Shown here piece after piece: positions 60,854 to 64,000 of a DNA stretch of 64,000 nucleotides. The stretch lies in contig JAOALC010000002.1 of assembly GCA_025153775.1 (NCBI GenBank), positions 310,001-374,000 of the forward strand, read 5' to 3'. Origin of the DNA: SAR92 clade bacterium H231 (GTDB taxonomy: Bacteria; Pseudomonadota; Gammaproteobacteria; Pseudomonadales; Porticoccaceae). How positions within the stretch are numbered: the stretch's first letter is position 1; each line of letters starts with the position of its first letter. Below the pieces are notes generated by a model. That model made no database searches. It had not been told where the DNA came from and saw only the letters and a list, made by a program, of their open reading frames with translations. The position numbers and the translations under genes are program-made.

Positions 60854-62020
60854 TTAATCAAGGCCGACAAAATTCTCTGCAATGGTTGTTTGGCCAGCCT
60901 TTGACCCAACTAAATACTCCAACTCAGCTTGCTGAATTTTACGATTAAAGGGGTTTTCACTAAATTTATGGAATAAGGTCGTCATCCACCATGAAAAACG
61001 CGATGCTTTCCAAACCCTATCCAGACAATCATCAGAGTATGAATTCAACAAATCGTCTTTGCCCTCTCCGTAGTGCAACTTAAGTGCTTCAAATAATGTC
61101 TTCGCGTCACCCGCTGCCAAGTTCAAACCTTTAGCACCCGTTGGCGGCACAATATGGGCAGAGTCACCCGCCAAGAAAAGACGACTGAACTGCATGGGTT
61201 CACATATAAAGCTTCGAAGAGGCGCAATACTCATTTCTAGTGCCGGACCTGTAACTAATTTAGCGGCGGCTTCAGCTGGCAAGCGACGTTGGAACTCTTT
61301 CCAAAAGCGCTCTTCAGGCCAGTCTTCAATTTTTTCATCGATAGGTACTTGAATATAGTATCGGCTCCGCGTTTTTGAACGCATTGAACTGAGCGCAAAA
61401 CCATCCTCGTGATGACTATATATCACCTCATCATCAACTGGTGGTACGTCTGCTAACAAACCTAACCAACCAAAGGGGTACTCATATTCATATTCGGTGA
61501 TTTCATCTGCAGGGACACTTTTCCGAGACGGGCCATGAAAACCATCACAACCAGCAATAAAATCACAGTCTATTGTATGTTTTTCGCCATCCTTTTCGTA
61601 AGTCACTCTCGGGCTGTCTGATGTATAATCATGCAGCTGTACATTCGCCGCTTCATATACTGTCGTGGCAGCAGTGCCTTCTCGAGCCTCCATTAAGTCC
61701 CGCGTCACTTCCGTCTGACCATAAATCATAACTACCTTGCCATCAGTAAGCTGGGTAAATGGAATTCGTAAATAACGATTATTAAAGCAAAGATTAAAGC
61801 CATTATGAACCAAACCTTCCTTATCCATCCGTTCACTAGCACCCGCTTCTCGAAGCACATCGATGGTGCATTGTTCCAACACACCGGCACGTATACGACC
61901 CAAAACATAATCTTTTGTTTTTGCTTCTAGGATAACGTTATTAATACCTTGGTTAGTCAGTAATTGACCTAACAACAATCCGGTTGGACCAGAACCAATA
62001 ATGGCTACTTGTGTGTTCAT
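60854..62020 (-). CDS. pobA: 4-Hydroxybenzoate 3-monooxygenase
   Basis: A 388-residue FAD-dependent group A hydroxylase. FAD motif [19 protein letters not shown], substrate-contacting [22 protein letters not shown] motif [19 protein letters not shown] and GD motif [20 protein letters not shown] are all intact, and length equals that of PobA (394). It hydroxylates 4-hydroxybenzoate to protocatechuate, the substrate of LigAB at 40 kb. The start at ATG 62020 has GGAG 6 bases upstream. It is preceded by a 510-bp gap downstream of the reductive-dehalogenase gene. Confidence 0.96.
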
Positions 62021-62531
62021 GGGCATCTCCACTTTTATTAATTAGATTTACAGAGAGCAGCATCATTACTGAGTTGTTATGAATTAAACATAGACATTTC
62101 TATCGTTCAATTGTACTTTGCAGGGATGGTAAACAATAAACGTTATCAGTTGAGCTAAAACGGTGGATAACTAGTCCAATCTTAGAAATTAATCTCTCCT
62201 ACCTACTGATAATCAAAGAATTTTTCAAAATCATATTATTGTATTGTTCACTGCGATATTTGGAGAATAATATAAATGGTACGTACACAAGAGCCTCAAA
62301 ATCTACTCTTTAAACCGAAGCCCATACGGTTGAACATTTCGGTTTTAGCCTCGCCCCTGTGCGCGATGGGGTAGGTACACTTGAGGCACTTGGCATTACC
62401 GATAGGGGCTAAATGCTATCTCGTACCAGCTTACAATCATTAAACTATTAGACTTCCATAGTGTAGTTTGTTGGACATAACAGGTGATATTGGATGATTC
62501 GTCACAGCATTTTAATGCCAAATAACTTGAA
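62021..62531. other. 511-bp region between pobA and the dehalogenase gene, with peptide remnants
   Basis: On the plus strand, an ATG at 62276 with a good site (TTTGGAGAAT) gives a 32-residue frame, MVRTQEPQNLLFKPKPIR then LNISVLASPLCAMG. On the minus strand, 62415-62296 reads HLAPIGNAKCLKCTYPIA then HRGEAKTEMFNRMGFGLKS and RF, with a Cys-x-x-Cys zinc-ribbon look but no ATG. AAACCGAA and TTCGGTTT form an inverted repeat at 62317-62346. The pobA promoter lies at the left end. Confidence 0.4.
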
Positions 62532-64000
62532 TCAAATTTCAAGAACAATCTCACCGCCTAGTTCGGCTGTTCTGGAGCAGCACAAGATGATCTTGTTCTG
62601 TCTCTGCTCTTTGCTCAGTACAAAATCCCTATGCTCAACATCGCCGCTGATATAATTTTTTGCACACACTCCACAGATACCATTTGAGCATTTAGTTTCA
62701 ATAGGGTAACCAGCATCGGCCAAGGCTTCAGTGGCCTTTTTATCTTCTGGCACCTCAATCTCTACACCAGAACTTTTCAAAACTAACTTAAAGGAATGAT
62801 TTTCATAGTGATCGGTATTCGGTGCGGTGAAATATTCACGATGTAGGCTATCTTCATCCCACCCCTGCTCCAATGCAGATTCAAAAATCGTGTCCATAAA
62901 TGCTGATGGGCCACAGGTGTATAAGTGATCATCCGATTGATATTCGCCTAAAACATCTGCCACATTAAGACGATTTTCGTCGCTGAAATAAAAGTGAACT
63001 CGATCAGCCCAAGGGTAACTTTGTATGTCATCAACAAAACCTGCACTCGCTCTAGTGGAAGCTTTGTAATAAAATGCGAATTCTTTTCCCTGTGCATAAA
63101 GTGTATGCGCCATCGCAATCATTGGTGTTACACCAATACCACCAGCCATCAACAATGAACGCTTGGCATCGTATAAGGGAAAGTGATTACGAGGCCTCGA
63201 GATCAATACTGGCTTGCCCTCTTTCAAGGTTTTGTGAATCCGCAATGATCCACCCTGTCCGTCGTCCTCACGCAACACGCCAATCACGTACTTACTTGAA
63301 TCACTGGGGTCACCACATAAGCTGTATTGCCTAATAAATTGCGGCAACGGGATCACATCAATATGGGCTCCTGCGTCAAAGGCTGGCAACTCAGAACCGT
63401 CCATTGTGCTGAATTCAAACTTAACTACGTTGCCATCGGCAGAGGTTGGCGTGCGCTTTTTCAACTTCGCTATTATCACCGGCTCTGGCCCTTTAGGCAC
63501 TGCATAGGGCGGCACTAAGTCGTCAGTTTCGCCACTTGCGATACGCCGCTTGTGCTCTTCCGGTGTCAGCATCTCTTTATAAGCTTGGATTCCCGCTTCG
63601 CGATCAATTGGCGATGGCTCAGGATAAGGTGATGGCGCAAGTTTAGCGGGATAACAGGCCAGTGTTTGATCTTCGGCTTTCAAATCAAAATTAGTAGTCA
63701 ATCCACGTCGGTTGGTATCAGTGGCAATTAAAGTATTGCCCTCTTCATCGGTACGTAAATCCCACCACCATTTTTTAACAGGATTAATACTGCCATTGCC
63801 CAACCAATCATCCAACTTAGTAATCCACGGTGCTAGTTTAGGAAAGTTGACTGCTAACCAGCGGTAAGGCGCCTCTTTAAAAACACCTTCTAAATTCCAT
63901 GGGCAGGTTTTCATACATCGTCCGCACATAGAGCCGGACTCGTTAGTCATTCGATAGCGAGCACATTTTTCTGCGTCTGGCTTCCATATCTCATAGCCAT
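62532..64000 (-). CDS. Reductive dehalogenase-reductase fusion (BhbA/NpRdhA type), 5' end off the window
   Basis: The visible 488 residues are the C-terminal part of a larger protein and continue, without a start, past the right edge. The end of a reductive dehalogenase comes first: the second iron-sulfur motif is C-x12-C-x2-C-x3-CP (Cys12, 25, 28, 32 of the visible part, in EKCARYR and SMCGRCMKTCPWN). A phthalate-dioxygenase-reductase-like module follows: FMN site RQYSLCG (about 223), NAD(P) site GGIGVTPMIAMA (about 286), YTCGPSAFMD, and plant-type [2Fe-2S] CSNGICGVC plus a distal Cys. This order matches cobalamin-dependent BhbA and NpRdhA, which remove bromine from hydroxybenzoates using NAD(P)H in air. 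The neighbouring pobA would take the 4-hydroxybenzoate made. Confidence 0.93.
   Translation of the reverse strand, partial: GYEIWKPDAEKCARYRMTNESGSMCGRCMKTCPWNLEGVFKEAPYRWLAVNFPKLAPWITKLDDWLGNGSINPVKKWWWDLRTDEEGNTLIATDTNRRGLTTNFDLKAEDQTLACYPAKLAPSPYPEPSPIDREAGIQAYKEMLTPEEHKRRIASGETDDLVPPYAVPKGPEPVIIAKLKKRTPTSADGNVVKFEFSTMDGSELPAFDAGAHIDVIPLPQFIRQYSLCGDPSDSSKYVIGVLREDDGQGGSLRIHKTLKEGKPVLISRPRNHFPLYDAKRSLLMAGGIGVTPMIAMAHTLYAQGKEFAFYYKASTRASAGFVDDIQSYPWADRVHFYFSDENRLNVADVLGEYQSDDHLYTCGPSAFMDTIFESALEQGWDEDSLHREYFTAPNTDHYENHSFKLVLKSSGVEIEVPEDKKATEALADAGYPIETKCSNGICGVCAKNYISGDVEHRDFVLSKEQRQNKIILCCSRTAELGGEIVLEI

Follow-up and report, generated by a model that had tools for sequence, protein, structure and literature searches.

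The window analysed here, a stretch of 64,000 nucleotides from SAR92 clade bacterium H231 (contig JAOALC010000002.1, positions 310,001 to 374,000), ends within a gene, rdhA, whose product is, as its domains and motifs indicate, an intact catabolic reductive dehalogenase fused to a phthalate-dioxygenase-reductase-like domain. We propose, with a probability of roughly 0.7, that RdhA is a self-sufficient dehalogenase of the BhbA clade and likely acts on ortho-brominated 4-hydroxybenzoates, that its product is passed to the 4-hydroxybenzoate 3-monooxygenase PobA and the ring-cleaving LigAB, and that the block of DNA carrying rdhA was gained beside the lig genes. Feature coordinates are collected in Table 1.

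The reading frame of rdhA was followed past the window edge in the same genome and encodes 1075 amino acids with no internal stop. RdhA scored 217.1 bits against the NCBIfam reductive dehalogenase (RDH) model TIGR02486 (cut-off 160.35) and 554.7 bits (E 3.6e-165) against the solved structure of NpRdhA from Nitratireductor pacificus, the latter alignment covering residues 2-113 and 161-742. Judged by sequence only, RdhA possesses the N-terminal vestigial duplicate of the corrinoid domain. Both 4Fe-4S motifs are present. The C-terminus matched phthalate dioxygenase reductase (2PIA) with 194.7 bits and contains the motifs RQYS, GGIGVTP and CSNGICGVC...C; flavin mononucleotide (FMN), NAD and plant-type 2Fe-2S sites are thus all represented. 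A pattern search for the Tat signal RRxF found none in RdhA. The original prediction had described a right-edge gene in which the second 4Fe-4S motif is followed by a reductase, and had pointed to the DNA beyond position 64000 as the place to look for the first Fe-S motif and a dehalogenase domain; all of these were found.

Six residues of the NpRdhA pocket (F291, S422, M423, Y426, K488 and R552), named in PMC10463259 and PMC7565698, correspond to F344, S473, M474, Y477, K539 and R603 of RdhA and are identical in all six cases. That RdhA might be no dehalogenase but a corrinoid protein resembling epoxyqueuosine reductase, or might be a dehalogenase in decay, was considered because Escherichia QueG matched it weakly and locally (27.8%, covering 19% of the query). 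The long NpRdhA match, the score above the RDH cut-off, the conserved pocket and the uninterrupted frame argue against it, and the QueG model reached 29 bits, far under its cut-off of 200. We regard this alternative as highly improbable; as far as sequence can refute it, it is refuted.

In the mechanism that we propose, NAD(P)H would reduce the C-terminal FMN and 2Fe-2S domain, and electrons would then pass via the two 4Fe-4S clusters to cob(II)alamin, which would bind the halogen of the substrate. Tyr477 would donate a proton while Lys539, Arg603 and Ser473 hold the phenol group, and the halide would leave; a proton-donating Tyr and phenol-holding Lys, Arg and Ser have been described for NpRdhA (PMC7565698). 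RdhA probably acts on ortho-brominated 4-hydroxybenzoates, part of which may be supplied by the aldehyde dehydrogenase (ALDH) encoded 13 bp upstream, and the dehalogenated product would pass through PobA and LigAB into the remaining protocatechuate 4,5-pathway. A simple route through 4-hydroxybenzoate appears likely, not certain. The cofactors, the substrate and the oxygen tolerance of RdhA are all predictions.

To find relatives, an alignment of six catalytic parts was scanned against genome contigs. This yielded at least 594 pattern matches, of which at least 565 were confirmed by tblastn. The 87 loci that we compared comprise the best 80 of the at least 565 confirmed stretches, six loci on plasmids (L005-L010) and the query itself. 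In 84 of the 86 loci other than the query, the alignment of the RdhA frame covered 1073 residues or more; L010 and L060 gave shorter frames and were left out of the linkage counts. By database label, most of the best 80 are alphaproteobacterial. Since so many related stretches were confirmed and since, among the loci compared, fusion to the reductase is the rule in the closest relatives, RdhA is best classed as a member of a known, common and widespread family and as no new kind. Putative bhbA homologues have been reported as widespread across the Roseobacter clade (PMC13101508). In the pair L089 and L090, a Flavobacteriales-labelled contig carries an rdhA almost identical to a Rhodobacteraceae-labelled one, probably a binning error. 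No published description of rdhA in SAR92 clade bacterium H231 was recognized by title or abstract opening among the matches listed, which does not prove its absence.

A careful tree was built from 43 chosen rows, comprising the 17 clade rows taken from a quick tree and 26 others, with L098 left out. RdhA falls inside the 17-row clade that contains BhbA (branch support 100/100), as the original prediction of a self-sufficient catabolic enzyme of BhbA type had implied, and pairs with the RdhA of gamma proteobacterium NOR5-3 (L011; 100/99), its nearest relative among the matches listed (64% identical). In the quick 87-row tree, which included the outgroup L098 as a long branch, the BhbA clade branch had a Shimodaira-Hasegawa-like approximate likelihood ratio (SH-aLRT) support of 93.

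The gene neighbourhood distinguishes this clade. The pobA gene was found in the fetched flanks of 13 of the 16 other BhbA-clade loci and of 2 of the 68 loci outside (it aligns only in part in L006 and L027), and ligA or ligB in 12 of 16 and 1 of 68, respectively. The corresponding Fisher p values (<1e-9) are descriptive only, as the rows are related and the flank lengths differ. The three clade loci without pobA in their flanks, those of NOR5-3, Woeseia and L014 (the last cut approximately 1 kb from rdhA on one side), have PobA elsewhere in the genome. Among 30 chosen rdhA carriers, 28 encode PobA somewhere in the genome (10/10 in the BhbA clade, 18/20 outside). The clade is therefore marked by the linkage of pobA and not by the presence of PobA. 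In the Woeseia locus (L012), a nitrilase-type frame (14920-15954; 50% identical to a Yoonia reference) lies approximately 1.7 kb from rdhA and recalls the nitrile entry in bromoxynil breakdown; the PobA match in the same metagenome-assembled genome (G485:C1:1224114-1225283) shows one internal TAA.

This linkage also bears on the possibility that RdhA debrominates ortho-bromophenols or compounds of the bromo-4-hydroxyphenylacetate type, and that pobA and lig adjoin it merely because the region is catabolic. A Roseobacter MED193 relative (L073) acts on 2,6-dibromophenol (PMC13101508), and the regulator encoded near pobA is HpaA-like, though under the cut-off. Furthermore, the NOR5-3 rdhA is adjoined by cytochrome P450-like and short-chain dehydrogenase/reductase (SDR)-like frames (read by eye from the translation) and an ALDH, not by pobA. 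However, MED193 RdhA lies outside the clade holding BhbA and the query in the careful tree, and inside that clade the linkage to pobA and lig is strong, so that we consider action on such compounds in place of 4-hydroxybenzoates unlikely. The P450-/SDR-like frames before the NOR5-3 rdhA (L011 7974-9974) are a hint of another entry compound there, perhaps a methoxylated one.

Among characterized systems, BhbA of Comamonas sp. 7D-2 (plasmid pBHB, L006) shares clade and domain order with RdhA (1071 versus 1075 amino acids, 56% identical), and its locus likewise contains pobA, ligA, ligB and an ALDH gene. It differs in lying on a betaproteobacterial plasmid and in having genes for a tripartite transporter protein and a porin where the query has OsmC and TonB genes. 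The plasmid of Nitratireductor sp. OM-1 (L005) carries OsmC, ALDH, RdhA, LigC-/LigB-type genes and PobA together, and the ALDH-RdhA pair with pobA/lig, as in the query, recurs at the N. pacificus locus (L016), OsmC being found in L005. Compared with the query, this cassette encodes RdhA, ALDH, OsmC and PobA at 58%, 64%, 51% and 51% identity, but it contains the lig genes inside. The window's DUF1932 protein is only 28% identical over 210 residues to the reference, and its membership in a shared cassette is unsupported; DUF1932 proteins do occur near lig, galB, pobA or rdhA in L005, L013, L015, L016, L025, L027, L041, L043 and L066. The locus of NOR5-3 resembles the query in its lig genes and, within 10 kb of rdhA, in relatives of the region's TonB receptor (53%), AraC regulator (45%) and alkyl-sulfatase-like gene (50%); it differs in the P450- and SDR-like frames upstream, in another ALDH and in the position of pobA elsewhere in the genome. 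By description, JtRdhA of Jhaorihella thermophila is also a self-sufficient, NADPH-driven fusion, and BhbA and JtRdhA are given as the fused examples (PMC10463259). Of the two enzymes previously named as known fusions of this design, BhbA therefore qualifies. NpRdhA, which shares its catalytic part and pocket with RdhA, is described in PMC10463259 as being without the reductase domain and needing separate redox partners; naming it as a fusion was wrong.

The genomic setting suggests that rdhA is an added neighbour of the lig genes. Window positions 50001-64000 were searched against 49 other genomes of the genus (at most six candidates were scored per genome, and the block edges are approximate). 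Long DNA matches of 72-97% identity (E up to 0.001) extend to 58407-58444; beyond 58444, the sole match is 277 bases of pobA (66%) in one genome (G040). On the right, genus matches (E up to 1e-20) resume at approximately 72444 (short) and at 72865, beyond the window. The enclosed block of approximately 14 kb contains genes for AraC, a metallo-beta-lactamase (MBL) protein, PobA, RdhA, ALDH, LysR, OsmC and a TonB receptor, and has a G+C content of 43.8%, compared with 48.1% on its left and 45.5% on its right side. Within the genus (50 genomes) and the family (112 genomes), RdhA was found in the query's own genome and in no other; within the order, five of 390 genomes encode it, the query's among them. 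PobA occurs in 2 of the 50 genus genomes including the query, the other copy (G040) being 55% identical. LigB is present in 10 of 50 including the query, identity reaching 90-100% in six of the remaining nine; eight of these nine were without PobA at the threshold used, several of them being incomplete genomes (73-98%). As RdhA and PobA lie in the accessory block and LigB occurs in 9 of the 49 other genomes, the two units seem to have different histories, and the dehalogenation block apparently came to lie beside an older protocatechuate 4,5-pathway that was already resident. A gain is likelier than many losses, and the transfer would have been into this lineage.

A clean empty site was not obtained. 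Three genus genomes (G001, G043 and G012) share the left edge at 58407-58444 and then continue with different sequence in each, although the G012 contig retains only 784 bases past the edge. The junction is therefore a variable spot and not the site of a simple insertion, and the block appears to be an accessory block gained at this spot. Stretches of approximately 100-130 bases, present in many copies (79-93%) in genus genomes, look like a dispersed repeat and were noted at L002 15218-15544 (G000:C2:387217-387543), at G000:C2:407341-407442 and at window positions 14414-14545.

As had been predicted, pobA is the gene next to rdhA; it lies on the same strand at a distance of 499 bp. Its product scored 631.6 against the equivalog model TIGR02360 (cut-off 538.7) and retains Arg44, His72, Tyr201, Ser212, Arg214, Arg220, Pro293 and Thr294 (Pseudomonas numbering). 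Val203 and Phe388 align with Leu199 and Tyr385 of Pseudomonas PobA and are called Val199 and Phe385 below; of the Tyr201/Tyr385 proton network, Tyr201 is thus kept and Tyr385 replaced. We compared 41 other distinct PobA sequences. This sample is not random: apart from one genus genome and three further plasmids, its sources are genomes and plasmids that carry rdhA. Position 385 was Tyr in 39 and Val in one of the 40 readable sequences, and never Phe; the PobA of the BhbA locus, partial in the alignment, has Tyr385 as well. Position 199 was Leu in 24, Ile in 13, Val in three and Gln in one. In PaPobA, Y385F increases the rate on protocatechuate, and L199V plus Y385F gives a 30-fold increase over wild type; a natural PobA clade has Val199, Trp201, Met210 and Phe385 (PMC10770758). 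The window PobA shares Val199 and Phe385 with the engineered enzyme, on a Tyr201 background. Compared with the clade F protocatechuate 5-hydroxylase XaPobA, it has only these two residues of the set in common; Tyr201, Leu210 and His72 of the window PobA are absent from XaPobA. Because of this pair, the substrate of PobA may differ from plain 4-hydroxybenzoate, and the enzyme may hydroxylate 3-substituted 4-hydroxybenzoates, converting protocatechuate to gallate or acting on 3-bromo-4-hydroxybenzoate.

A debromination in two stages would follow from the second of these activities. RdhA would remove the first bromine of a dibromo compound, PobA would accept 3-bromo-4-hydroxybenzoate and make 5-bromoprotocatechuate, and ring opening by LigAB would free the second bromide and yield 2-pyrone-4,6-dicarboxylate, the substrate of LigI. 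LigA-, LigB- and LigI-type genes lie inside the window. Kersten, Chapman and Dagley reportedly described halide release by protocatechuate 4,5-dioxygenase in 1985, although their paper was not among the literature matches listed. The engineered pair raises activity on protocatechuate, itself a 3-substituted 4-hydroxybenzoate (PMC10770758), and the fused relative JtRdhA favours the dibromo over the monobromo acid approximately fourfold (PMC10463259). JtRdhA nevertheless turns over the monobromo acid too, BhbA proceeds to 4-hydroxybenzoate, and gallate formation from protocatechuate would account for the same PobA residues. We therefore judge the two-stage route to be quite doubtful.

Several observations weigh against our main proposal. 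The Val199/Phe385 pair speaks against plain 4-hydroxybenzoate as the sole substrate of PobA, and with the intergenic gap between rdhA and pobA a single transcript is only a possibility. The window PobA shares more with a Pseudomonas putida plasmid PobA (66% identical) than with its counterpart in the Nitratireductor cassette. The PobA lineages thus differ, pobA may have moved independently of rdhA, and a travelling PobA-RdhA pair is unsupported. PobA is also frequent in the chosen carriers outside the clade, so that its mere presence is no clade marker. The nearest relative, NOR5-3, has neither pobA nor OsmC within the 10-kb flanks of rdhA, and its ALDH is nearer to the window ALDH at 50282-51730 (43%) than to the block ALDH (31%). 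As block-type ALDH occurs in 6 and OsmC in 3 of the 16 other clade loci, OsmC-ALDH-RdhA is no constant unit; for this reason, and since NOR5-3 has another ALDH, we only infer that halogenated 4-hydroxybenzaldehydes enter through the ALDH. The block ALDH had no match among solved structures at E 1e-90, and for OsmC with reductive dehalogenases a review was the only item among the literature matches listed. With respect to the cofactor, a cobalamin riboswitch lies approximately 100 bp ahead of a gene for a BtuB-like receptor, which scored 288.4 bits and so stays below the family cut-off of 599.7, and no CbiC match was found in the genome, the CbiC control being positive in 7 of 14 genomes; CbiC is one marker, and its lack is no proof of lacking corrin synthesis. 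Because of the riboswitch-linked receptor and the missing CbiC match, the corrinoid is probably imported.

The protocatechuate 4,5-pathway genes lie on the same contig, as predicted, at 30.2-41.3 kb of the window. Halogenated 4-hydroxybenzoate, 4-hydroxybenzoate and protocatechuate had been proposed to be linked by genes in one window. The genes are indeed present; the plain 4-hydroxybenzoate step is uncertain in view of Val199/Phe385, and the units differ in history. LigK and LigU scored above NCBIfam cut-offs, and LigI and LigJ were named from Pfam superfamily and neighbourhood. Around the lig genes (28799-57019) there are three glutathione S-transferase (GST)-fold proteins (37752-38546, 52508-53320 and 56252-57019), a glutathione reductase, an SDR and an ALDH; for the GSTs at 52508 and 56252, the only two searched, the best solved match was the beta-etherase LigF. 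These genes could represent a possible aryl-ether pathway. The habitat may be marine, the halogen may be bromine, and the sulfatase and TonB genes may play a part, although here the related TonB receptor, AraC and alkyl-sulfatase-like genes near the NOR5-3 rdhA should be noted. The promoter and terminator scan was uninformative (14 and 6 found compared with 16.6 and 7.2 expected).

Table 1. Coordinates of rdhA, its motifs and surrounding features (numbered from the first letter of the window; values above 64000 lie beyond it).
Feature	Position	Strand	Remark
rdhA-reductase fusion gene, C-terminal part (488 residues)	62532..64000	-	continues past window to 65759
Second 4Fe-4S motif C-x12-C-x2-C-x3-CP	63900..63965	-	RdhA residues 599-620
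First Fe-S motif CGNCNKCARECP	64038-64073		RdhA residues 563-574; just beyond window edge
pobA, 4-hydroxybenzoate 3-monooxygenase family	60854..62032	-	TIGR02360; Val203 and Phe388
Accessory block, left part	58445..64000	.	DNA homology to genus ends 58407-58444
AraC-family regulator	58893..59789	+	HpaA-like, 215.2 bits, under cut-off 274.65
MBL-fold hydrolase	59836..60909	-	closest NCBIfam models GntH and RNase Z, both under cut-off; listed start overlaps pobA end
ALDH of block	65773-67251		beyond window; ends 13 bp before rdhA
LysR of block	67349-68260		beyond window
OsmC of block	68295-69569		beyond window
TonB receptor of block	69860-72271		beyond window
DUF1932 protein	57604-58434		
ligB	39999-40838	-	NCBIfam cut-off passed
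ligA, 143-aa frame	40841-41272	-	named by place and size only
ligC-type GFO/IDH/MocA dehydrogenase	35909..36895	-	Pfam superfamily and neighbourhood
ligI- and ligJ-type amidohydrolases, ligK aldolase, ligU tautomerase	30252..34045	-	
Sulfatase (PF00884) and alkyl-sulfatase-like MBL protein	42732..45892	-	

The residue pair of PobA is an unforeseen, testable feature beside a known enzyme family. It offers a natural test of the engineering result, namely whether the pair arose for 3-substituted 4-hydroxybenzoates; if the two-stage route were true, this PobA would be a natural enzyme that retains Tyr201 and carries the pair engineered for 3-substituted substrates. The RdhA block beside a protocatechuate-cleavage pathway would be a case of bacteria extending an aromatic pathway to halogenated feedstock.

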